From Tardibacter chloracetimidivorans (GTDB lineage Bacteria; Pseudomonadota; Alphaproteobacteria; Sphingomonadales; Sphingomonadaceae): a stretch of 64,000 nucleotides of DNA. The position numbers were made by a program, and so were the translations under genes. The notes under the pieces were generated by a model that saw nothing but the letters and a program-made list of their open reading frames with translations, did not search any database and had not been told where the DNA came from. Below, in pieces: positions 5,577-59,463 of the stretch (its first letter is position 1; each line of letters opens with the position of its first letter). The stretch is from NCBI RefSeq assembly GCF_001890385.1, contig NZ_CP018221.1, positions 2,281,501 through 2,345,500 of the forward strand, written 5' to 3'.

Positions 5577-5933
5577 CTGAGTCGGCCAGCGATAGCTAAT
5601 GGGGGGCTCGGACGCACGCAATCGCTAAGTCACCCGGTGAAAGCTCCGGAAGGTCAGCCTGACTCCCCTGTCCGACCCACGCGGGTCTACTTGACACCAA
5701 TAAACCAACACATCATTGTTTTTCCGGAAATGCTATGACGGGGTTGTGCCGGTAGTCGCTGCGATCGATCTCTAGTCTCATGCCTGATCGGCGTTCCGAC
5801 CATCCGGGCGAACGATCGCCGACTTTGTGATCCAGCTGAAAGGATGATCCCGTGACGGGGCCTGTTCCCGCGTCCGCACTTTACGCGGTCGATCGACGAT
5901 CACTCCACGAACAACTCAAAGGAATGCCGTATC

Positions 5934-37285: not shown

Positions 37286-38435
37286 CGTGCCTATCCGCTT
37301 AAGGCATACACCCACTAGATATGGTATGGTGGGTCCATTGGCCTGAGTAGAGTTCGGCAAAGGTCGGCGCCTCGATATCACTGGCGATCCCGAGGAGGGA
37401 TCGGAAGGCGTTGAACGGGTAGAAGCGGCGATTGAAGCGGAAAGTGAACTCGTTGAGGTAGGCTTGCAGATGCTTGGTGCTGACGCCGTGGTGGATGCCG
37501 TTGAGCCACGCTTTGAGGTTTGAGAACACCAGATGGACGATGGGCAGGAACTCTTCGGACACCTCCGGGTCGCCACACTGGGCGATGGCGTGATGGTCGT
37601 AACCGCCGCCCTGCAACCCGCTATAGCCGCTCCAATCATCGGTGATGACCAGCGTTCCCGGCTCGACCGCGCTCTGTACAAAGCCACCAAGGGCACCGGC
37701 ACTGCGGTCTGCACCGATGGCCAATCGAACCCTTCCGGCATAGCGTCCGTTCCGGCGGCGGTCCTGGCCAGTGCCAGGCTCCCGGTGACGAACTTCGACG
37801 GCGGCGACCACCAGCGTTTTGTGGTGGGTTCCCCGGCCTTCGCCGCGCGTTCGCCCGCCGATCCAGGTCTCATCGACCTCGACATGCTGACCGCTCTGCC
37901 CGCCGATCCGATCCTGATCGGGGCGCACCATCGCGGCGCGCAGTTTATGGAGCAGGCCAAAGGCCGTCTCGTACCGGGTCAGGCCAAGCTGGCGCTGCAA
38001 CTGGACGGCAGATATGCCGGTCGTCTGACTCGCAACCAGGTAAGCGGCCCAGAACCACACGCTGAGCGGGATGTGGCTTCGTTCCATGGCCGTGCCGACC
38101 ATCAGGCCGGTCTGACGGCGACACGAGCGGCACATCAGGATGACAGGCCGAGTGGTGAAACGAAACGGATCGCCGACGACGCCACAGCGTGGGCACGCAA
38201 ATCCATCAGGCCAGCGAGCTTTTTCAAGCCAGGACGCGCAAGCGCCATCATCCGGGAAAAGCCGCTGGAACTCGGGGAGGGATTTCGGGAACGGCAGCTT
38301 GTCGCGGTCAAGAACGTCCACAATCCCCACCCTTTACAACCGCTTTGGGTGGCACCAAGCCGCAGGAAAAGTCAGGCGCGCGCCACAAGGCAGCCACTAG
38401 ATGTAGTGGGTGTATGCGTCAAGCGGATAGGCACG
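37286..38435 (-). mobile_element. IS1595-family insertion sequence, complete (1150 bp)
   Basis: The element is bounded by inverted repeats starting CGTGCCTATCCGCTT that match at 30 of 32 positions (left 37286-37317, right 38404-38435). It is flanked by the direct repeat GTTCCTAC on both sides, the 8-bp target duplication expected for this family. It has one transposase gene on the minus strand. Both ends and the duplication are intact, so insertion is recent and the copy may be active. Confidence 0.92.
37299..38330 (-). CDS. IS1595-family transposase
   Basis: A 343-aa transposase. The N-terminal zinc ribbon (CPRCG ... CRSCRRQTG) lies at about residues 45-75, followed by the ISXO2-like DDE domain with VDETWIGG, ITDDWSGY and a FSNLKAWLNGIHHGV region. 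The start is a GTG near the right end, and the stop codon lies inside the left terminal repeat. The reading frame is intact. Confidence 0.9.
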   Translation of the reverse strand: MGIVDVLDRDKLPFPKSLPEFQRLFPDDGACASWLEKARWPDGFACPRCGVVGDPFRFTTRPVILMCRSCRRQTGLMVGTAMERSHIPLSVWFWAAYLVASQTTGISAVQLQRQLGLTRYETAFGLLHKLRAAMVRPDQDRIGGQSGQHVEVDETWIGGRTRGEGRGTHHKTLVVAAVEVRHREPGTGQDRRRNGRYAGRVRLAIGADRSAGALGGFVQSAVEPGTLVITDDWSGYSGLQGGGYDHHAIAQCGDPEVSEEFLPIVHLVFSNLKAWLNGIHHGVSTKHLQAYLNEFTFRFNRRFYPFNAFRSLLGIASDIEAPTFAELYSGQWTHHTISSGCMP

Positions 38436-38443
38436 GTTCCTAC
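38436..38443. repeat. Target site duplication, right copy (GTTCCTAC)
   Basis: The second copy of the 8-bp duplication. Collapsing it with 37278-37285 restores the SDR reading frame. Confidence 0.9.
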
Positions 38444-48005: not shown

Positions 48006-48217
48006 CCGCCATTGAACGACCCGGCTTGGCCGGGGTGGCGCCCACACCTCGGTTGCGATCAGCGCGCCGATCTAACGCACGGTGGGCCAGTTTCTATTAC
48101 AGCCGCATGCACTGAAGACAAAAATTTATTGATCTTAGGGTCCAAACTCAATCAGCCTCTTGAAAATCGTTGGTCTCATTGATTCAAGGCGTTTTCGCTG
48201 AAGAGGAGGCCTTGGGG

Positions 48218-48716
48218 ATGTCGCGTTCGTTGTTCTGGCTATCGGATGAAGCGTGGACAGCAATCGAGCTCCACTTGCCCAAGAACCAGCCGGGAGCACG
48301 ACGTGTTGATGACCGGCGGGTGATCTCCGGCATCGTTCACATGCTCAAGTGCGGCGGTCGCTGGGCAGATTGCCCCGCCGAATACGGGCCGGCGACGACG
48401 GTCTACAACCGATGGAACAGGTGGAGCCGGCGGGGCATCTGGACACGCATCCTGGCTGCACTGACCGAAGAAGGCTGGATCGCCGAGACCGGGCAGATCG
48501 ATAGCAGCTACATCAAGGCTCACCGTAGCGCCGGTGGGGCAAAGGGGGGGCGCGAGCCAATGCCATTGGGATCTCGCGTGGCGGCCGGACAACAAAGATC
48601 CACGCCCTTGTCGACGTCCTCGGACGGCCGCTTCGTCTCGTCCTGACGCCCGGCAACACATCGGACGTGAAGGGCGCCGACCTGCTCATCAACGAAACAG
48701 CGGGAATGAAGCGGGT
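48218..48716 (+). pseudogene. Truncated IS5-family (IS427-like) transposase remnant
   Basis: The orfA part starts at ATG 48218 (MSRSLFWLSDEAWTAIELHLP... STYIKAHRS-type segment) and runs to 48646. At the slippery run AAAGGGGGGG (48541-48550) a -1 shift leads into orfB (KGGARANAIGISRGGRTTKIHALVD... GNTSDVKGADLLIN). This is the normal two-frame layout of IS427-group elements. The orfB frame loses similarity after ETAGMKRV at about 48716, roughly 90-100 residues short, so the right end is deleted and the remnant cannot transpose. The left end is probably near 48130-48150, but I could not fix its inverted repeat. Confidence 0.8.
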
Positions 48717-48723
48717 GACCCTC

Positions 48724-48747
48724 GCGGGCGGGGGAAACCCCGCCCGC
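48724..48747. terminator. Perfect GC-rich hairpin with GAAA tetraloop
   Basis: Arms GCGGGCGGGG / CCCCGCCCGC (10 bp, no mismatch) around GAAA, immediately after the point where IS5 similarity ends. No T-run follows, so a folded RNA or DNA structure rather than a simple terminator is possible. Confidence 0.5.
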
Positions 48748-48769
48748 ACTTGCGACCGTCCAAAATCCG

Positions 48770-48810
48770 GCCGCGCGCCGCCGCCGTTCCGGCGGCGGCG
48801 CGCGGCTTTT
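48770..48810. terminator. Strong bidirectional Rho-independent terminator
   Basis: A 17-bp perfect stem (48770-48786 with 48790-48806) with a TTC loop, followed by TTTT on the plus strand and preceded by AAAA, so U-runs exist on both strands. It insulates the conjugative-element remnant from IS5 and catabolic transcription. Confidence 0.75.
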
Positions 48811-48849
48811 CTTGTGCCGGCAGTCGATGCGATGGGCTATACTGGTGCC

Positions 48850-49239
48850 ATGCCCGATAAAGACACCGATATGGAGAGCCAGCTTCAGACAGTCGATTGG
48901 AGCGCGATCAGCGACTATCAGACCGGCCTTCGTGAACCGAGCAGGCCTCCCAGTAAGGGCGGCAACACCGCCGCACTGCACGGGCACAGCATCAAGATCG
49001 GCGATACCTGGTACAGCTTCCTCGCGCTTGGCGCGCAAAAGTGGGTCTTTGCGTCAGATACCGTCGCCTTCGATTGGGCGTGGGATGTTTCGGGAAAATA
49101 CCGGAACATCGTCAAGGAGAGCATTCGGACCTTGGGCAAGAACGGTGTGCCGGTCGTTCGCGGCAACAGAGGTTCGAAGCCGATGCTCAGGACGGCGCAG
49201 ACGCGATTGCCGGCCCGCCGAAGTGAGTGGGAAGACTAA
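48850..49239 (+). CDS. Hypothetical protein of the integrative element
   Basis: 129 aa from ATG 48850 (48871 is an alternative). It is Trp/Lys-rich with a central DTWYSFLALGAQKWVFASDTVAFDWAWDV segment and a basic tail. I do not recognise a family. It follows the strong terminator and lies at the left side of the element remnant. Codon use and GC bias are normal for the region, which supports it being a real gene. Confidence 0.5.
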   Translation: MPDKDTDMESQLQTVDWSAISDYQTGLREPSRPPSKGGNTAALHGHSIKIGDTWYSFLALGAQKWVFASDTVAFDWAWDVSGKYRNIVKESIRTLGKNGVPVVRGNRGSKPMLRTAQTRLPARRSEWED

Positions 49240-49261
49240 ATCTTGATGGTCCGTCGCGAGC

Positions 49262-49573
49262 CTAGATGCCATCGCCCTCGGCGAGGGCAGCCTCGATCAT
49301 CATCCGCCAGCCCTCCACGTCCGTACCCGTCGGTGCCGTCGCGCGAACCGAATCGAACAGCGCACGCACCTGCGGCACATAGCTTCGCCACATCGACCCG
49401 CCCTCGAACGTGATATTCTCGGCATGCCCGTCGTCCAGGAAGAGACGATCGGCGGCGCGTTCGATCGTTTTCATCGCGTGATGAACCTCTCGGCAGCGGA
49501 GCGCGTATCGCTTCTCCGGCAGTCTGTTGGGCCTGTTAGCGTCCACCGGCGCGACCATTTGGCGGCGCAGCAC
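49262..49573 (-). CDS. Small hypothetical protein
   Basis: 103 aa if the GTG at 49573 is used, 98 aa from ATG 49558, and 71 aa from ATG 49474. It is mostly helical and acidic toward the C-terminus (AENITFEGGSMWRSYVPQVRALFDSVRA). No domain is recognised. It converges with the preceding hypothetical gene. Confidence 0.4.
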   Translation of the reverse strand: MLRRQMVAPVDANRPNRLPEKRYALRCREVHHAMKTIERAADRLFLDDGHAENITFEGGSMWRSYVPQVRALFDSVRATAPTGTDVEGWRMMIEAALAEGDGI

Positions 49574-49617
49574 GCCCCACGATCATAAACCCCGACCGTC
49601 CCTGATCAAATCCGAAA

Positions 49618-50104
49618 TCAGGCGGCGCGGCGGCAACAGTCCGGCTTCGGCCGACCGCGTGGCCACCACGCCGCGACACCGATCCGCACCAGCTCGGTGC
49701 CGAGATCATGGCCGTCGAGAACGACAGTGGCGACGGTCCGATTGTAGCTGCGGTCGACACGGCGGAAGGTCACCTCGCGCCCCGCGAGCAGCGCCGTAGC
49801 ACGGTCCTTTGCTCCCAAGCCCAACACGGTTTCGCCTGCGCACTTGGCCTGATCGCGGTGCATTTTCCGGGGCGTCGATCCCTGCAATCCTGATGCGCTC
49901 GCCGCTTTCCAGCCGGAACGTGTCGCCGTCGGGCACCCAGGCCACGCGGCCGGAATCGCAGCGGTCCGCTGCACCGGCGGTCGCGGGCATCGGCGTCGCG
50001 GCAATGAGGGCGGAGACCGCAAGGGCATGAAGCATGGACACGGCTATCGCGGTGCCGGGGGCCGATTGTCGAGCGTCATCCGCACAGTGCCAGGCCTCCT
50101 TCAT
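49618..50104 (-). pseudogene. Thermonuclease (SNase-like), frameshifted
   Basis: A signal-peptide-like start (MLHALAVSALIAATPMPATA from ATG 50035; ATG 50104 is in frame upstream) leads into WVPDGDTFRLESGERIRIAGIDAPEN, the SNase active-site strand. From about 49845 the similarity moves to another frame (RDQAKCAGETVLGLGAKDRATALLAGREVTF... ATVVLDGHDLGTELVRIG). The shift equals one extra or two missing bases near GCACCGCGATCAGG. The product would be non-functional unless this is a sequence error. Such nucleases are common cargo in this class of element. Upstream, a 40-codon open frame (50101-50223) ends at the IS110 border and overlaps the 50104 start by ATGA; it may be the tail of a gene cut by the IS. 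Confidence 0.7.
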
Positions 50105-50224
50105 TGCAACTGCCGCCCTGAACGGACCTCTCTCGCGGCGGGTCTGGCGAGGTCCGCCGGTTCCGCAACGGCGTCGCCGACCTTCTTCCCCGGCTCGGTG
50201 CCCTCGCCTTCCTCGCGAGGCATG

Positions 50225-51585
50225 TGTGGACACCCCTTCGGTCAAGGCCTGATTTGATAATGATGAACTCCGGTAGAGTGCTCACATGTGTCCGGCCTTG
50301 ATTTCGCAGTTTTAACACTGCGAGGCCCTGATGAAGTCCGCGGATCATGGTCCCTACCAAAAAAAGCGCATACGGTGATGCTGCCACGCGATCGGGTTTT
50401 CCTGATCCCCGGCTCGAGACCGGTTCTCATCAATATCAGTGCACGCCTTCTCCGAGTTGACTGACCCTACGGGTCAGGCAACTGCTGCAGCCAGCTCCGG
50501 CTGATAGTTCATTTTCCTCGCCATGACGGCCCAGGCGGTTCGCGCCATCTGTTCGCCAAGGCGACCGTCGCGAGCCTGGGAGGCTTTCGATCCAGAAGCT
50601 TTTTCACCCAGCCATAGAGGGGCGTCGGTTGCCCCGATCGCACCCTTCGCAACACCGAAGTCGCGCCCAGCACGAGCAACACGCGGATATGCCGATCACC
50701 GGCTTTTGTGATCCGCCCGTTGCGCTCCTTTCCGCCTGAGGATGACGACTTCGGTGTCAGGCCCAACCATGCTGCGAACGAACTTCCTGACTCGAACATC
50801 GAAGGGTCGGGCATTGCCGCTACGATCGCGGTCGCCGTAATCGTCCCGACGCCGGGAACCGACGCCACCCTTCGGCTGGCTTCACTCGTTCGGTGCCACA
50901 GGCGCAGCTCGCGCTCGAGCTTCCTGATCTGCTCTTTGATCTTCTCGATCTGCTCCGCATAAATGGCGACAGTGGACCGAACGAGTGGCGTTATCCCCAG
51001 CTCGTCGCCTTCGCGTCCAAGGACGCGGTCAACGAGCTCGGGAATACGCTCGATTCCCAACGGCGCGACGATGCCAAACTCGGCAAGGTGGCCGCGCAAG
51101 GCATTGACCAGCATGGTGCGTTGCCGGATCAGCAATGCCCTGGTCCTGTGGACGGCCAGAACCGACTGTTGCTCAACCGACTTCACCGCCACGAACCGCA
51201 TGGTCGGCCTGGTCAGCGCTTCGCAGATGGCCTCGGCATCGACGACATCGTTCTTGCCGCGCTTGACGTATGGCTTCACGTACATCGGGTTCATCATCCG
51301 AACCTCGTGGCCCATGGCGCTCAGCTCTCGCGCCCAATGGTGTGCTGAACCGCACGTCTCCATCCCAATAAGGCTGGGTGAAAGCTTCTGGAAGTGGGCG
51401 AGGAAATCTCGACGGGCGAGCTTGGTGCTCGTCACTTCGCCCGTCTCGCTATCAATGGCGTGCACTTGGAAAACCCGCTTCGCGATGTCGATACCGATCG
51501 TCAATCCAGTCATGTGCTCCTCCTGATAGGCAGTTGATAGGGACCAAGATCCGCAGCCTGCGGCTGAAGGTTGGGGGTGTCCACA
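50225..51585 (-). mobile_element. IS110-family insertion sequence, IS1111-like
   Basis: The element contains an IS110-type transposase and is bordered by the inverted 12-mer TGTGGACACCCC (50225-50236) and its complement (51574-51585), which fit the subterminal repeats of the IS1111 subgroup. True ends probably lie a few bases outside. There is no target duplication, as usual for this family. The long non-coding segment lies downstream of the transposase (about 50237-50473), which is where IS1111-type elements encode their bridge RNA. It separates the thermonuclease region from DUF736. Confidence 0.7.
50474..51513 (-). pseudogene. IS110-family transposase with C-terminal frameshift
   Basis: The N-terminal DEDD RuvC-like domain is intact (IGIDIAKRVFQVHAID; MNPMYVKPYVKRGKNDVVDAEAI), as is the C-terminal Tnp20 domain (VASVPGVGTITATAIVAAMPDPSMFESGSSFAAWLGLTP). 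The open frame stops at 50509 after LATVALAN plus 15 unrelated residues (334 aa). In the next frame the expected tail QMARTAWAVMARKMNYQPEL runs to 50474, so one base is missing near 50550. The lost 25 residues are at the extreme C-terminus and some activity may remain. Confidence 0.8.
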
Positions 51586-51759: not shown

Positions 51760-52059
51760 ATGGCACAGATTGGCAGCTTCACCCGCGGCGAAAACGGCAT
51801 CTACACCGGCGAAATCCGGACCCTGACGCTTCGCGTCAAGGCGAGCATCCGCCCCTGCGAGCGCGACAACGAGAAGTCGCCCGACCACCGGGTCAGCGCA
51901 TCGGGCGTCGAATTCGGGGCGGCCTGGACCAAGGCGGCGCGCGAGACCGGCGCGGAATATCTGAGCCTCAAGCTCGACGATCCGTCGTTCCCGGCACCGA
52001 TCTACGCGACGCTCAGCCAGGGCGACGACGGCGAGCACAAGCTCATCTGGTCGCGCTGA
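51760..52059 (+). CDS. DUF736 family protein
   Basis: A 99-aa protein recognised as DUF736 from [23 protein letters not shown] at the start and [18 protein letters not shown] near the end. AAGGAGG lies 5 bases before the ATG. It is a marker gene of the Trb-type integrative elements of Alphaproteobacteria, usually placed upstream of the TraF-type peptidase; its molecular role is unknown. The 174 bp between the IS110 border and its start hold only its promoter and leader. Confidence 0.88.
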
Positions 52060-52092: not shown

Positions 52093-52365
52093 ACGAGCGG
52101 CGAGCCGGATTTGCCATAGCTCGCGAGGGACCTTGCAGGCGGGGGCGTCTGCTTGTGTCAGCTTACCGTCGCACGGGACCGACAGGCCCGTGCCACCCGG
52201 CATAACCCACGCCGCTCTTCCGCGCGGGGCTTTTCCATGTTTCCGCTTGGGGGGGTGTCGAAAACGCCGGTCGCGATTCCGACACTCCCCGGCCGGTGTC
52301 CCGCCCGCCATTCCCGGTGTCAGCGGCGGCAGATCGCCGTCCCTTTTCGGACACGGACAGGCAGA

Positions 52366-52605
52366 ATGGACAGCGACGACGACATCTCCCGCGCGACCCG
52401 CGCGAAACGCGGCTCCCCCTATCTCAACACCGATCAGGCGGCGGCCTATCTGAAGTTCTCCAGCCGGCTGCTGAAGCGGCTGCGGCGCGCCGGCAAGGGT
52501 CCGGTCTTCCGGCTGCACAGCCGCTTCGTCCAATATCATATCGACGATCTCGACGCATGGTCGAAGGCCCAGTCGATGGGAGGCGGCGACCATGACCAGG
52601 CGTGA
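52366..52605 (+). CDS. Helix-turn-helix DNA-binding protein (excisionase/AlpA-like)
   Basis: A 79-aa protein with a MerR/excisionase-type HTH: YLNTDQAAAYLKFSSRLLKRLRRAGKGPVFRLHSRFVQYHIDDLDAW. It is typical for small regulators between DUF736 and the peptidase in these elements. The last 14 bp overlap the TraF gene, so they are co-translated. Confidence 0.8.
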   Translation: MDSDDDISRATRAKRGSPYLNTDQAAAYLKFSSRLLKRLRRAGKGPVFRLHSRFVQYHIDDLDAWSKAQSMGGGDHDQA

Positions 52606-53176
52606 CATTCGCGGGTCGGCGACGCCGCTGCTGGACTGGGGCGACCAGCTTCGCGCCGGCAAGCAGCGGCGCCGGATCCTCGGTCGCCGCATCGCGATCA
52701 CCGGCATCGGCATATTCCTCCTCGGGCTGACAATGGCGTTTCCGCCGGCGCCGCGGCTTGTGTGGAATGCCAGCGCCAGTGCGCCGATCGGTCTCTATGC
52801 CGTGACCCCGGGCGCACCCGTCGATGCCGGCGACATGGTCATCGCCCGCGTGCCCGATCCCTGGCGGATGATGGCGGCGCAGCGGCGCTACATTCCCGCC
52901 AATGTGCCGTTGGTGAAACGCGTCGCCGCGGTGGCAGGCGACGAGGTCTGCGCGCTCGGCCAGGAAATCTTCGTCAATGGAAAATGGGTGGTCGAGCGCC
53001 GTCTGGCCGACGCCAAGGGGCGGCCGATGAAATGGTGGAACGGCTGCGTGCGGTTGCGCGGCCGCCAGCTCTTCCTGCTCATGTCGGATAGCCCCGCATC
53101 GTTCGATGGCCGGTATTTCGGCGTGACCGAAGGCGGACTCGTGGTGGGCAAGGCGCGGTTGCTATGGGCGCGCTGA
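52592..53176 (+). CDS. traF: S26 family signal peptidase, conjugal transfer TraF type
   Basis: A 194-aa inner-membrane serine peptidase. One transmembrane segment lies at about residues 33-55 (AITGIGIFLLGLTMAF), the nucleophilic Ser is in NASASAPIGLY near residue 65, and the general-base Lys is in PLVKRVAAVAGD near residue 106, with SDSPASFDGRYFG at the C-terminus. TraF processes and cyclises TrbC pilin in related systems, but trbC is missing here. Overlaps at both ends (14 and 13 bp) show a tight operon with the HTH and transglycosylase genes. Confidence 0.88.
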   Translation: MTRRDIRGSATPLLDWGDQLRAGKQRRRILGRRIAITGIGIFLLGLTMAFPPAPRLVWNASASAPIGLYAVTPGAPVDAGDMVIARVPDPWRMMAAQRRYIPANVPLVKRVAAVAGDEVCALGQEIFVNGKWVVERRLADAKGRPMKWWNGCVRLRGRQLFLLMSDSPASFDGRYFGVTEGGLVVGKARLLWAR

Positions 53177-53772
53177 CCCGGCTGCTTCCGGCCATCCTGC
53201 TGCTGACCGCCGTACCCGCCAAGGCCGACGAGGTCGGGCGCTGGCGACCGATGATCGAGGAGGCGTCGACCCGGTTCGGCATCCCGACGAGCTGGATCGA
53301 GCGCGTGATGCGGGCCGAAAGCCGGGGGTATACGACGCTGAACGGCCGCCCCATCCGGAGCCGTGCCGGGGCGATGGGCCTCATGCAGCTCATGCCCGCG
53401 ACCTGGACGGACATGCGCGCGCGCCTTGGATTGGGCAGCAACCCCGACGATCCGCGTGACAACATCCTCGCGGGCACCTTCTTCCTCCGGCTGATGTACG
53501 ACCGGTTTGGCTATCCCGGGCTGTTCGGCGCCTACAATGCCGGGCCTGGAGCCTATGCCGCCTTCCTGGCGGGGCGCCGACACCTTCCCGGCGAGACCGT
53601 CGCCTATCTCGGCACTGTCGGCGGCGCGGCACGGGGTGATCCACCGGCATCACAACCGGCGACGCAACCGTCGGTGTTCGTGGTTCGCCGGGACTCCGCT
53701 GGGGACCAACAGCCATCAGTCCCGGACGAAGGACCATCGGTGCTGTTCGCTGTCCGGAAGGTCGTGCCATGA
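53164..53772 (+). CDS. Lytic transglycosylase (SLT domain)
   Basis: A 202-aa exported protein: a signal peptide ending PAKA near residue 20, the catalytic Glu in ERVMRAESRGY near residue 45, RAGAMGLMQLMPATW near residue 75, and NILAGTFFLRLMYDRFG and GAYNAGPGAY motifs. It opens peptidoglycan for the mating-pair channel, like VirB1/TrbN. The ~50 C-terminal residues are low-complexity. It overlaps traF by 13 bp. The 198-bp gap to the next gene contains a CCAATTTTC / GAAAATCGG hairpin at 53853-53873. Confidence 0.88.
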   Translation: MGALTRLLPAILLLTAVPAKADEVGRWRPMIEEASTRFGIPTSWIERVMRAESRGYTTLNGRPIRSRAGAMGLMQLMPATWTDMRARLGLGSNPDDPRDNILAGTFFLRLMYDRFGYPGLFGAYNAGPGAYAAFLAGRRHLPGETVAYLGTVGGAARGDPPASQPATQPSVFVVRRDSAGDQQPSVPDEGPSVLFAVRKVVP

Positions 53773-54327: not shown

Positions 54328-54600
54328 GAATCTGCGCATTTCGGGCCGGGATGCGGTGCCAGGTTGGCATCGCGTCCCGGCCTCTATTTTGAGCCGAGGA
54401 TGGGGAGCCGGGCAGGAGGAAGGGGAAAAGCGAAAGCAAGAGAAAGGCACTGTCTCGCGACAGGTGCCAAGTGATTGTCTGCACATCGTTTTTTCGGGAG
54501 ACATGCTGCGGTTCGCGCGAGACATGCTCATCAGGAATGGTGAAAATCCGCCAATTTCAGCGTGGATTCGCGAGATTCGCGACCACAGCGACGGGCCGCG
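54328..54600. other. Structured interval upstream of relaxase, possible oriT
   Basis: The interval contains a long imperfect hairpin with GGCCGGGA/TCCCGGCC outer arms and TGCCA/TGGCA inner arms (54344-54382), a second hairpin with GGCAC...GTGCC arms near 54455, and two direct copies of GAGACATGCT at 54498-54507 and 54519-54528. Hairpins and short direct repeats just upstream of a relaxase gene are typical of transfer origins, but promoter or terminator roles are equally possible. Confidence 0.35.
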
Positions 54601-56265
54601 ATGAGCGACGACGACGAGTTCACGCCACGGCTGGGTCGGCAGCGCCAGCAGGGCGGCAAGCGCGCGCGCCGCTACCTCGGCCGCGTGGTCGGCGCGGCGA
54701 TCCGCTCGGCCGAGAAAGGGTCGATCAGGAGCCGTCGGTTCGACGGCAGCCGGATCGGCCGTGGCGCCAGCATGGGACGCCTGCTTTCCAGCCGCGATCG
54801 GTTCGGCGGGCTGCGCGCGCGGCGCGCGGTGGTGAAGACGCGCCTGGTCCGCATCGGCACCGAGGGGATGCCCGCCGCCCGCGCGCACCTGCGCTACATC
54901 CAGCGGGACGGCGTGACCCGCGAGGGCGCGCCGGGCGAGCTCTATTCGGCGGAGCGCGACACCGCGGACGGCAAGGCGTTCCTCCAGCGCTGCGATGGTG
55001 ACCGCCATCAGTTCCGCTTCATCGTCTCGGCCGAGGACGGCTCGGAATATCCCGATCTCAAGCCCTATATCCGCCGGCTGATGACTCAGATGGAAGCCGA
55101 CCTCGGCACCAGGCTCGACTGGGTCGCGGTCGACCATTTCAACACCGCCCATCCCCATACGCACATCATGCTGCGCGGCGTCGATGATACCGGCCAGAAT
55201 CTGATCATCGCCCGCGAGTATATCTCGCACGGCATCCGCGAGCGGGCGGCCGAGCTTGTGACGCTCGATCTCGGGCCGCGCACGCCCCAAGAAATCGAGG
55301 CGCGGCTTCGGCACGATATCGGCGAGGAACGAATGACCGCGATCGACCGGCGCCTGATCCGGTCGATGGATGCCGATCGGATGGTCACATCTGTGGACCG
55401 CGATCCTTTCCAGCAATCGCTTCGGGCTGGCCGATTGCAGAAGCTTGCGAGCATGGGGCTCGCCGAGAGCGTCGGCGGTGGCCGCTGGCAGCTCGCCGAA
55501 GATCTGGAGGAGACGCTGCGCATGCTTGGCGAGCGGGGCGACATCATCCGCACCATGCAGCGCGAACTGACGGCCCGGCATCTCCAGCGGCCGTGGCTCG
55601 GGCGGAGTCTGTTCGGGGCCGGGGAAACGGATCCGGAGCCCGTCGTCGGCCGGTTGATCGCGCGCGGCCTCGCCGACGAGCACAGTGACCGCCATTACCT
55701 GCTGGTCGACGGCATCGACGGTCACGCCCATTATGTCGACATCGGGCGCGGCGACGCCGTGCTGCCGATCCCGGAGGGCGCGATCGTCCGAGTGACGGCG
55801 CGGAGGATGGAAGTCAGGGAAGCCGATCGCGTCGTCGCCGACGTGGCGGTGGCAAACGGCGGACGATACTCCGTCGACCTGCATCTGCGGCACGACCCCT
55901 CGGCGACGCAGGCGTTCGCGGAAACCCATGTTCGACGGCTCGAGGCGATGCGGCGCGGTGGCGCGGGCGTCGAACGTGAGGCGGACGGGACTTGGTCGAT
56001 CCCGGCGGACCATGTCGATCGTGCGGCGGCCTACGAGGCGCGCCGCCATCGGGAGCAGCCGGTCGAAGTGGAGACCCTGTCAGCGCGACCCCTGGACCAG
56101 CTTCGTGAAGCTGATGCGGCAACCTGGGTCGATCGAGAGCTGGCATCACAGTCTCCGCTGCCGATCCGGGACGCCGGCTTCCACTGCGCCCGGCCCGACC
56201 GGCGAGGCCGAACTCGTCAACTATCGCGTTCGCGGCCGCTTCTATGTGGTCGATCGCATCTTTGA
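54601..56265 (+). pseudogene. DUF3363-type (VirD2-like) relaxase, 3' end replaced
   Basis: From ATG 54601 the first ~527 residues match a TraA/VirD2-type relaxase of the DUF3363 group: a basic N-terminus, LRYIQRDGVTREGAPGELYS, VDHFNTAHPHTHIMLRG as the metal-binding HxH motif, and a C-terminal ATWVDREL region. After DAGF at about 56181 the relaxase sequence stops and the DNA continues as trbG in the +1 frame; the frame reads 27 unrelated residues to a stop at 56265. Members of the family normally run to about 600-650 aa, so the end is lost. The catalytic N-terminal domain appears whole. Confidence 0.8.
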
Positions 56266-56362
56266 CGCCGCCGAGCTGAGGCTTGGCACCAGGAAGCAGC
56301 AGATCGTCCGCATCAACCGCGTTGCCGAGGGCGGCGCCGCGCGGAAGGGCAAGCGCTCATGA
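56180..56362 (+). pseudogene. trbG: trbG (VirB9-like) 3' fragment
   Basis: About 60 codons in the frame ending at 56362: EAELVNYRVRGRFYVVDRIFDAAELRLG then KQQIVRINR. This is the C-terminal beta-domain end of TrbG, the outer-membrane channel protein. No start codon or N-terminal domain exists. It overlaps the trbI ATG (ATGA), the normal trbG-trbI arrangement, which confirms the identity. The upstream junction to relaxase lies near 56181. Confidence 0.75.
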
Positions 56363-57561
56363 GCGAGTCCGTCATCCCTCCGGCGCCGAAGCTCGATCCC
56401 GAGACCTTGGCCATCCGGACCAAACCCGCCCGCGCAATCCGGTTTCGCCGGGGTGTCATCATCGCCATCGCCGCCTTGGGCTCGATCAGCCTGATGGCGG
56501 TGGCCTGGATCGCGTTGAAGCCGCGCGTGTTCAGCGCCGTTGCCGATCGTCAGGAACTGTCGGAACCGAGCAATCGGCCGTCGACCGACGCCCTGAATGG
56601 ATTGCCGGCGACCTATGGGGACGCGCCGAAACTCGGCCCACCGCTGCCGGGAGACCTTGGACGACCGATCCTCGAAAGCCAGCGCAGGATGGCGATGGAA
56701 ACCGGAACTGGCAGCGATCCATCGGCCCAGCAGGCAGCGCAGGAACGCGAGCGCCGGCTTGCAGAGCTTAAGGCCGCACGCGAGTCTGGGGTTCTGGTGC
56801 AGGGCCGCACGGCCTCCCCGCCGTCAGCCGCCCCCGACGTGTCGGGCACGCCAACGCCTACCCCGACGCCTGCCACAGGTCCGGCACTCGACCCCGATCG
56901 CGATCCGAACGCGCAGGGCCGCAAGGCTCAGTTCGTTGGTACGCTTGATCGTTTGGATGACGTCAACCCGCACACTCTGGCTGCCGCGCCGTCGCCCTAT
57001 CTGCTATCGGCCGGGAGCGTGATTTCGGCGAGCCTGATCACCGGTCTTCGTTCCGACCTCCCCGGTTTGGTCACGGCACAGGTGACTGCACAAGTGTTCG
57101 ATAGTCCCACCGGCCGCATCCTGCTCATTCCACAAGGGTCGCGGCTGATCGGCAACTACGACAGCGTCGTGGCGTTCGTCCAGAAGCGTGCGCTGATCGT
57201 CTGGCAGCGGATCGTGCTGCCCGATGGTAGCTCGATGAAGATCGACAATGTGCCGGCGACCGATGCGTCTGGATACGCGGGGCTGCAGGACAAGGTTGAT
57301 TTCCACACATGGGCACTGCTCAAAGGTGTCGCGCTCGCCACGTTGCTCGGGGTCGGTTCCGAGCTGACGGTTACGGGCGAAAGCGACCTGGTCCAGGCGA
57401 TCCGGGAGTCGACCCAGCAGAATGTGTCGCGCGCCGGCGATCAGCTCACATCGCGCAATCTCAACATCCAGCCGACGATCACGATCCGGCCCGGAGCGAC
57501 CGTCCGGCTGGTCGTCCACAAGGATCTCATTCTCGCGCCCTGGCGAGAGAAGGAGCGCTGA
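56359..57561 (+). CDS. trbI: TrbI/VirB10 family conjugal transfer protein
   Basis: A 400-aa protein with one N-terminal transmembrane segment (residues ~35-55, GVIIAIAALGSISLMAVAWIA), a proline-rich periplasmic linker, and a C-terminal VirB10 beta-barrel domain (SAGSVISASLITGLRSDLPG; PQGSRLIGNYDS; WQRIVLPDGSS; QPTITIRPGATVRLVVHKDL). It bridges inner and outer membrane in the mating channel. It is intact, but its partners TrbB-TrbF and most of TrbG are absent, so it should be without function here. Confidence 0.9.
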   Translation: MSESVIPPAPKLDPETLAIRTKPARAIRFRRGVIIAIAALGSISLMAVAWIALKPRVFSAVADRQELSEPSNRPSTDALNGLPATYGDAPKLGPPLPGDLGRPILESQRRMAMETGTGSDPSAQQAAQERERRLAELKAARESGVLVQGRTASPPSAAPDVSGTPTPTPTPATGPALDPDRDPNAQGRKAQFVGTLDRLDDVNPHTLAAAPSPYLLSAGSVISASLITGLRSDLPGLVTAQVTAQVFDSPTGRILLIPQGSRLIGNYDSVVAFVQKRALIVWQRIVLPDGSSMKIDNVPATDASGYAGLQDKVDFHTWALLKGVALATLLGVGSELTVTGESDLVQAIRESTQQNVSRAGDQLTSRNLNIQPTITIRPGATVRLVVHKDLILAPWREKER

Positions 57562-57562
57562 A

Positions 57563-57778
57563 ATGGCTGACCTCAGACTGCCCCAACTTCCCGATCGCAA
57601 TCCGGTCAAGCTCAGCATCGCTATCATGCCGGACCTTCATCAGGCTTTGAACGACTATGCCGCGCTTTACGCTCGGACCTACGGCCGCGACGAGCCAGTC
57701 ACCGAGCTGATTCCTGCCATGCTCGCTGCCTTCCTCGAAAGTGACAGGAGCTTTGCGCGAAACAGGACGAAGCTGTGA
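57563..57778 (+). CDS. DUF2274 family protein
   Basis: A 71-aa protein that always follows trbI in this type of element: LPDRNPVKLSIAIMPDLHQALNDYAALYARTYG then VTELIPAMLAAFLESDRSF. The fold looks like a small ribbon-helix-helix-type protein. Its start is 1 base after the trbI stop. The role is unknown. Confidence 0.85.
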   Translation: MADLRLPQLPDRNPVKLSIAIMPDLHQALNDYAALYARTYGRDEPVTELIPAMLAAFLESDRSFARNRTKL

Positions 57779-57781
57779 TTT

Positions 57782-57982
57782 ATGGCGCACAGCACTGATC
57801 GCCAGGCCGACGCCGTCCTCATCGAGCCTCTGACGGTCCGCATCTCCACGGCGGTCCAGCTCACCGGTATCAGCCGCTCGCGTCTCTATGAGCTGATCCA
57901 GTCCGGTGAGCTGGAAACTGTAAAGGTGGGTCGATCCACGCTGATCCCGTACAAAAGCCTGAAAGCCCTGACCGGCGTCTAG
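57782..57982 (+). CDS. Excisionase-like helix-turn-helix protein
   Basis: A 66-aa protein with an HTH_17-type domain (RISTAVQLTGISRSRLYELIQSGELETVKVGRSTLIPYKSL). The position next to the integrase and the size suggest a recombination directionality factor. Its stop codon and that of the convergent integrase share the tetranucleotide CTAG at 57979-57982. Confidence 0.8.
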   Translation: MAHSTDRQADAVLIEPLTVRISTAVQLTGISRSRLYELIQSGELETVKVGRSTLIPYKSLKALTGV

Positions 57983-59214
57983 CCTGGCGTGCCCCTACCT
58001 TTGCCGAAGTCCGGCCGCAGGATTTTCGCGCCGTCCCGCAGCTCGTCGAGATAGTCGGACCAGTGCTGCATCATGCGGACGCGTTCATCCCAATATTCAC
58101 CGCGGGTGTAAGCACGGCGCACCATCGAGGTGTCGAGGTGGGCGAGCTGCTTCTCGATGGCGTCCGGGTTCCAGATGCCCATCTCGTTGAGCAGGGTCGC
58201 GGCCATAGCCCGGAAGCCGTGCGCCGTCATTTCTTCCTGGCTGTAGCCCAGCCGGCGCAGTGCCGCGTTGATGGTGTTTTCCGACATGCACTGGCGAGGT
58301 GACCGGAATGACGGGAAAAGATACCTTCCGTCGCCGGTCAGCGGGTGAAGTTCTTCCAATAGCGCCAGCGCCTGTCGCGATAGCGATACGCGGTGCGGAC
58401 GGCGCATCTTCATCTTTTCCGCCGGGAGCGACCAGATGGCGGTTCGCATATCTATTTCCTCCCACTCCGCCTTGCGCAACTCGCCCGGACGGACGAACAG
58501 GTGGGGCGACAGCCGCAGAGCGATCGCGGTAATTTCATGTCCCGTATAACCGTCGATTGCGCGCAGCAGCCCGCCAGCCTCCTTGGGCGTCGTGATCGCG
58601 GCAAGATGCTGGACCTTCGGAGTAATGAGCGCGCCGCGCAGGTCGGCAGCGACATCGCGATCGGCCCGAGCAGTCGCGATTGCGTAGCGGAACACCCGAC
58701 TGAGCACGCTGCGCATCCGGCGCGCACTTTCGTAGCGACCGGTCGCTTCCACCTTGCGCAGGACGGCCAGCACCTCCTGCGGTGTGATTTTCGAGATCGG
58801 AAGGGCACCAATCATGGGATAGGCCATGCCAAGCAGCCAGCGAATCTTGTCGAGTGTGATCGGCGCGCGGCCCTCCCGTTCGTTCTTGGCGACCCATTCC
58901 TCTGCGATCGTCTTGAACGTGTTGTCGGCGGCGACCTTGCGTGCGAGCGTCTCAATCTTCTTCTCGGCGGAGGGATCAAGGCCGGCGGCGATCTGCTCCC
59001 GTGCCTTGTTAAGCTGTTGGCGCGCTGCCGCGATCCCGACTTCGGGCCAAGCACCGAAATAGAGCGTCTTTTGCCGGCCGAGGTGCCGGTAGTTCATTCG
59101 CCATAGCTTCGCGCCATTCGGCTGAACGAAAAGATACAAACCGTCGGAATCTGCCAGCTTGTAGGCCTTGTCCCGGGGCTTGGCGTTGGTGATCTGGATG
59201 TGATTCAGTGCCAT
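57979..59214 (-). CDS. Tyrosine-type site-specific integrase, P4-like
   Basis: A 411-aa integrase: N-terminal DUF4102 arm-binding domain (ITNAKPRDKAYKLADSDGLYLFVQPNGAKLWRMNYR), core-binding domain near residues 105-190, and a catalytic domain with Arg in HLFVRPGELRKAEW, HGFRAMAATLLNEMG (H-x-x-R) and the nucleophile Tyr in MVRRAYTRGEYWDER. The frame is open upstream through the tRNA, but ATG 59214 gives the family length. It lies next to the 3' end of tRNA-Thr, its likely attachment site. Confidence 0.92.
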   Translation of the reverse strand: MALNHIQITNAKPRDKAYKLADSDGLYLFVQPNGAKLWRMNYRHLGRQKTLYFGAWPEVGIAAARQQLNKAREQIAAGLDPSAEKKIETLARKVAADNTFKTIAEEWVAKNEREGRAPITLDKIRWLLGMAYPMIGALPISKITPQEVLAVLRKVEATGRYESARRMRSVLSRVFRYAIATARADRDVAADLRGALITPKVQHLAAITTPKEAGGLLRAIDGYTGHEITAIALRLSPHLFVRPGELRKAEWEEIDMRTAIWSLPAEKMKMRRPHRVSLSRQALALLEELHPLTGDGRYLFPSFRSPRQCMSENTINAALRRLGYSQEEMTAHGFRAMAATLLNEMGIWNPDAIEKQLAHLDTSMVRRAYTRGEYWDERVRMMQHWSDYLDELRDGAKILRPDFGKGRGTPG

Positions 59215-59390
59215 GATGGTGCCAGCTCCAAAGGGCTCACCGGCACCATCAAAAACACCATCATCTTGATGGTGCTGCCGATGGATTCGGGTGGATGAGC
59301 CCGGATTCCATTCGGCGATTTTCACTGAAAAAATGCTGGAAAACCAGCCGCTTGCTGGACGATTCCGGACGTTGCCGGAAAGGTCTCTGG

Positions 59391-59463
59391 TGCCGCTTAC
59401 AGGACTCGAACCTGTGACCCCCGCATTACGAATGCGATGCTCTACCAACTGAGCTAAAGCGGC
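59391..59463 (-). tRNA. tRNA-Thr (anticodon CGU)
   Basis: 73 nt without encoded CCA. Acceptor arms GCCGCTT / AAGCGGC with discriminator A, D arm GCTC...GAGC, anticodon stem TCGCA/TGCGG with loop TTCGTAA (anticodon CGT), a 5-base variable loop, and T arm ACAGG-TTCGAGT-CCTGT. The 3' end faces the integrase, so it is the probable attB of the element. I did not find a second copy of the tRNA 3' end in the window. Confidence 0.93.

Follow-up and report, generated by a model that had tools for sequence, protein, structure and literature searches.

Genes and features of the locus

The window analysed here is a stretch of 64,000 nucleotides (C1:2281501-2345500) of the Tardibacter chloracetimidivorans genome, which comprises 3.79 Mb in 5 contigs and is rated 96.85% complete. 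Next to a tRNA-Thr gene, the window contains the following genes and sites of an integrated element (window positions, strand, description):

51760..52059, +, DUF736 gene, a backbone gene of this kind of element (Pfam E 1.9e-32)
52153..52605, +, gene for an HTH_17 protein, at the place of rdfS before traF (Pfam HTH_17 E 1.5e-7)
52592..53176, +, traF, S26-type pilin peptidase (Peptidase_S26 E 3.4e-23; TraF_Ti E 6.1e-24, below cut-off)
53164..53772, +, lytic transglycosylase in the msi107 position (SLT E 6e-16)
54475..54492, +, putative oriT, conserved 18-bp core upstream of rlxS
54601..56181, +, rlxS, first 527 codons kept, encoding the nuclease domain and the greater part of DUF3363
56359..57561, +, trbI, intact open frame without stops (Pfam TrbI E 1.7e-57)
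57563..57778, +, DUF2274 gene, intact (Pfam E 6.4e-27)
57782..57982, +, AlpA/excisionase-like (xis-like) HTH gene
57979..59214, −, tyrosine integrase (start codon inferred)
59388..59463, −, tRNA-Thr(CGT), integration site, with a shared 13-bp core at 59401-59413

The rdfS-like, traF, transglycosylase, trbI, DUF2274, xis-like and integrase frames are all open, and these genes are most likely intact passengers that have not yet decayed. It should be noted that the rdfS assignment is made from position and the HTH_17 match only, with the rdfS-traF order taken from the available part of PMC11963761. For trbI and the kept part of rlxS, dN/dS against relatives is 0.08-0.13, and the values among the relatives themselves are 0.08-0.12. 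Such likeness indicates that little decay has followed the loss of genes described below, and does not in itself show selection afterwards.

The junction between rlxS and trbG

The relaxase gene is interrupted at its 3' end, and the DNA then continues with the end of trbG, as follows:

56182..56190, +, nine bases assignable to neither parent side (base-by-base comparison with the three relatives G369, G011 and G373)
56182..56265, +, out-of-frame 27-residue tail of the fused relaxase, then a stop
56191..56362, +, trbG 3' end, whose native start is lost and whose frame is open from 55928 inside rlxS

The relatives are the elements of Sphingobium estronivorans (L041/G369), Sphingomonas sp. NFR15 (L042/G373) and Sphingomonas formosensis (L044/G011). 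They belong to the same lineage, are 79-85% identical in DNA on either side of the junction and, unlike the element in the window, are complete between rlxS and trbG. The fused frame runs from the ATG at 54601 to the stop at 56265. The original prediction, that the relaxase frame is normal up to about 56181 and then gives way to the C-terminal end of TrbG in another frame, agrees with the comparison: the protein is of RlxS type and tracks its intact relatives through position 56181, the NCBIfam RlxS model (NF041267) matches over positions 1-526 of 654 (E 4.9e-244; 811.9 bits, with a cut-off of 850), and Pfam DUF3363 covers profile positions 2-247 of 375 only. DNA homology to the relatives stops at 56180-56181 on the relaxase side and resumes on the trbG side at 56191 (G011, G373) or 56200 (G369). 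From 56191 the last 56 codons of trbG are present, corresponding to residues 260-315 of the 315 of the G011 TrbG, and in the frame at 56141-56359 the final part of the CagX/TrbG profile is recognised (positions 151-197 of 198, E 9.4e-10). The trbG/trbI overlap ATGA, which had also been pointed out, is kept at 56359-56362. The new 27-residue tail of the relaxase lies in a different reading frame from that of trbG.

Could the segment after 56181 be a normal relaxase end, or one that intact relaxases of other elements also have? Either would have undone the original prediction, and both were rejected, since in 49 of 51 related relaxase loci the match includes the 128 C-terminal residues that the fused gene lacks (98-128 of them aligned); the other two (L090 and L091) match only a relaxase fragment. 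On the other side, at least 238 TrbG residues precede trbI in 28 of the 29 related loci fetched, the 29th (L136) being too short to tell. Counted among the 49 is the relaxase of Sphingomonas soli NBRC 100801 (L048 10001-11971), which has an internal stop codon and perhaps belongs to another decaying element.

What the truncation removes from the protein can be judged from a structure model of the full-length relaxase of L044 (mean pLDDT 80.9). The fold of known relaxases lies at about residues 74-243, with MobA (2ns6) as the best structural match (Z 10.7, 139 aligned); judged from this model, the truncation is predicted to spare the nuclease fold. The part lost from residue 528 on is modelled as two helices, each followed by strands (a run of them after the second), and a structure search with it gave weak matches only (Z about 6). 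A PDB profile search returned two matches, to bacteriophytochromes, at E 0.5-0.6, and nothing useful.

Between the two homology blocks, 11,966 bases lie in G373, 17,728 in G011 and 19,345 in G369. Alignment to complete sphingomonad elements thus bears out the deletion that had been proposed, and its expected size of more than 10 kb holds as well: 12.0, 17.7 and 19.3 kb separate the same points in the three relatives, so that 12.0-19.3 kb would be missing if the lost block resembled theirs. The corresponding gap is 24.6 kb in one other element of the same genome and about 14 kb in another, and same-contig, same-strand pairs among the matches listed range from 11.8 kb (G255) to 49.9 kb (G419), with 46.0 kb in G132. 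According to the ORFs and Pfam matches of the relatives, the missing block consists of the relaxase C-terminus, a variable cargo slot and the genes from traG to trbF, in agreement with the location given earlier for TraG and the trb genes, between rlxS and trbG. Pfam matches were checked for traG, trbB, C, E and L in G369, for trbF and trbG in G011, and for trbD in the resident element at C1:9.7k. The gene that we take to be trbJ, from its place, has a sub-threshold DUF4141 match only, and a small gene after traG has no Pfam match and is left unnamed. The cargo of the rlxS-traG slot differs among the elements compared; for example, in the resident element at C1:9.7k the slot (L012 13173-18960) contains genes whose products match the defence-system proteins MzaC, MzaD and MzaE.

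Among the 397 family genomes searched, own included, a match spanning the junction was found in this genome only (E 1e-15, at most two candidates scored per genome). At this threshold 55 genomes (54 others and its own) match the 801-base junction query on one or both sides. Since none of the matches listed for the 54 other genomes crosses the junction, the fusion match is not due to chance. Likewise, the same junction was absent from 98 relatives of other species, with at most five candidates scored for each. As for plasmids, 53 records matched an 8-kb junction query, none of them over 80% of the query, and the 20 matches listed cover 1-5%.

The genome holds several related elements, and two of them wrongly joined in assembly might look like a fusion. 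However, the other elements have about 68% DNA identity here, with two stretches of 109-121 bases at 76-79%, which is little to mislead an assembler. G011, G369 and G373 also match both flanks as one lineage, and the contig is 3.38 Mb long. An assembly artefact is therefore highly improbable.

The block might also have moved rather than been deleted, the locus then being one part of a multipartite ICE that site-specific recombination reassembles, as in the Mesorhizobium tripartite ICEs; according to the available parts of PMC11963761 and PMC8627217, such ICEs with an rlxS/Trb backbone exist. The search of the genome for the missing genes, which had been called for, speaks against it. A search with the G369 version of the lost relaxase end gave two matches in this genome, one in each of the two other relaxases, which argues that the block was deleted and not moved within this genome. 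TrbE has seven matches, none in the window, the best three being 84, 80 and 79% identical; those at C1:29.7k and C1:1954k sit in two other rlxS-bearing elements and that at C1:808k in a further trb set. The junction, moreover, is without a recombinase frame. A block moved elsewhere is thus disfavoured by the searches with TrbE and the lost relaxase end, and we regard a multipartite element as extremely improbable. A further TrbE match, at C1:2827361-2828647, covers only residues 417-844 of 852 and is perhaps part of another broken transfer set.

We therefore return to a deletion. The original prediction had specified a single one, and this part stands with a reservation: there is one junction, most simply made by one deletion, but the nine unassigned bases would also fit filler end-joining or several steps. 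No clear microhomology was seen in the base comparison with the relatives, from which the direct parent is absent. As the nearest relative is only about 85% identical on the relaxase side and 83% on the trbG side, the exact endpoints, the microhomology and the number of steps are uncertain.

The left edge and the integration site

The left side of the element is likewise truncated:

48136..48718, +, IS5-family insertion sequence, cut short at 48718, which is the left edge of the element
48719..50222, no strand assigned, retained left arm, which begins right behind the position of the parB stop codon
50223..51589, −, IS110-family insertion that splits the left arm

This second truncation falls at 48718/48719, within an IS5-family insertion sequence of high copy number, whose DUF4096 transposase ORF lies at 48170-48646. 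The genome contains 15 other copies of this stretch, 100% identical (rounded), and all 15 matches stop at 48718. The five copies fetched out of the 15 are 99.7-99.8% identical, and all of them share a further 273 bases past that position. The near identity of the copies suggests that the left cut is recent. On the element side, the left arm has 88% DNA identity to the related locus L049 from L049 position 5643, where the parB ORF ends at 5645; relative to L049, the element has lost parB, an ArdC-like gene and the remainder of this arm. The arm contains a nuclease-like SNase gene on the minus strand (weak match, E 2.1e-4). Four relatives (L042, L049, L054 and L065) are uninterrupted where the IS110-family copy is inserted: homology to them is lost after 50222 and found again from 51590. 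The transposase ORF of the insertion (50509-51513) has an NCBIfam name that denotes an RNA-guided transposase.

The right end lies at the tRNA-Thr gene. The integrase region of G152 is 85% identical to that of the window and sits at a tRNA-Leu gene (L108 7318-7404), and the homology between the two stops at 59413, after the shared 13-base core 59401-59413. From these two sites, the integrase may accept several tRNA genes. We found no second exact copy of the 13-base core in the 79 kb upstream, and the repeats seen are only of chance length; with up to 2 mismatches allowed, the last 25 bases of the tRNA gene were found a single time in the genome. As the genome is rated 96.85% complete, this absence is not absolute, and the searches could have overlooked a left att site that has diverged or become shorter. 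Because the left att site was not found, excision by the integrase is unlikely. The earlier account of the locus, which dealt with the internal deletion, is therefore incomplete, as the left-side truncation and the missing left attachment site were overlooked. Its statement that the element is mobilisable at best is probably too generous, since an element without a left att site should not excise.

A probable relic among known elements, and the question of its mobility

Both junctions and the gene content are direct observations, as is the occurrence of the lost relaxase end elsewhere in the genome in two other relaxases only. On this basis we consider, with a probability of roughly 0.93, that the locus is the relic of a conjugative element beside a tRNA gene, deprived by two deletions of the transfer machinery and of one end. 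The first joined rlxS codon 527 to about codon 260 of trbG at one junction, most simply in one deletion; lost with it were the C-terminal part of the relaxase, the cargo slot, TraG (the coupling protein), TrbB to TrbF and most of TrbG. The joining would be illegitimate end-joining without clear homology. The second deletion truncated the left arm, with the loss of parB and all that lay past it, and ended in the neighbouring IS5-family copy. Both events are probably recent. Excision would be lost together with the left att site, and so would normal transfer, the relic having neither its own TraG and Trb channel nor the conserved relaxase C-terminus.

Among known systems, the ICEMlSymR7A-type ICEs of Mesorhizobium are alike in the order of the rdfS-like gene, traF, the transglycosylase (msi107 place), the oriT place and rlxS, as well as in trbI followed by a small gene, the DUF736 gene and an integrase at a tRNA (gene lists from the available parts of PMC8627217 and PMC11963761). 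In contrast to them, the relic lacks its left arm, the end of the relaxase, traG, trbB-trbF and the greater part of trbG, and its host is a sphingomonad. Compared with what makes up an RlxS/Trb-type ICE, it has an RlxS relaxase, though scoring below the NF041267 cut-off, and the rdfS, traF, msi107 and DUF736 genes upstream of rlxS. From the set of the T4CP gene traG and trbBCDEJLFGI it has the trbG end and trbI only, and of the flanking attL and attR only the tRNA-side end was found. The Tn4371 family ICEs have a similar rdfS, rlxS and trb layout. The available text of PMC2789088 defines this family by an integrase more than 70% alike to intTn4371 and describes integration at 8-bp attB sites of the TTTTTCAT type. 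The right end of the relic lies at a tRNA gene (tRNA-Thr, by the homology break at 59413 against G152, whose copy lies at tRNA-Leu), which may set it apart from the family.

Like integrative and mobilizable elements (IMEs), the relic has lost the channel and kept the integrase and parts of the relaxase. Identified IMEs are not decaying ICEs, according to the available part of a review (PMC5704250), whereas the relic looks like simple decay. Still, the relic might be a functional IME, with a truncated relaxase that works, and might excise and ride the transfer channels of the resident ICEs. In favour of this, a putative oriT survives, the frames of the nuclease domain, the integrase and the xis-like and rdfS-like proteins are open, and two other rlxS genes and further trb sets occur in the genome. 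Against this, the left att site was not found in the upstream and genome searches, the left arm is cut into an IS, and the conserved relaxase C-terminus is lost, which makes a functional IME very unlikely. The relic of a conjugative element is thus a new, well-preserved example of ordinary ICE decay, a known kind, and what is known about ICEs is unchanged by it. A literature search by topic rather than by strain found no earlier work on this locus, which is weak evidence of absence. Its value is that the death of a conjugative element can be read cleanly, with both junctions placeable within about 10 bases and the flanking genes still open, while two intact-looking relatives reside in the same chromosome. 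In addition, a natural C-terminal truncation of RlxS is useful for asking which part of the relaxase transfer needs.

The putative oriT core is within a block conserved in 14 aligned upstream regions, and is exact in 10 of them. In ICEMlSymR7A, too, oriT lies upstream of rlxS, as stated in the available part of PMC11963761. Searched with up to 3 mismatches, the 18-base core occurs three times in the genome, always ahead of an rlxS gene (two copies are exact and the third has one mismatch; reversed control, 0), so the core of the relic is common to the two resident elements, exactly or with one mismatch. It is conceivable, if unlikely, that the relic serves as a fixed chromosomal origin of transfer in the manner of an Hfr strain, with the resident RlxS proteins and trb channels acting on the putative oriT. 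If true, the two resident ICEs would move the chromosomal DNA beside the relic, including catabolic-looking genes.

Those genes lie left of the relic, at window 1-48000, where a scan of 9 window proteins gave a P450, an AMP-binding enzyme, a TPP enzyme, a TonB receptor and an MFS transporter; it is possible that they are former cargo of the element. We also found 1154 bases at window 37286-38439 that are 99.9% identical to a stretch close to a different trb cluster of this genome (L018) and may be an insertion sequence that moved recently.
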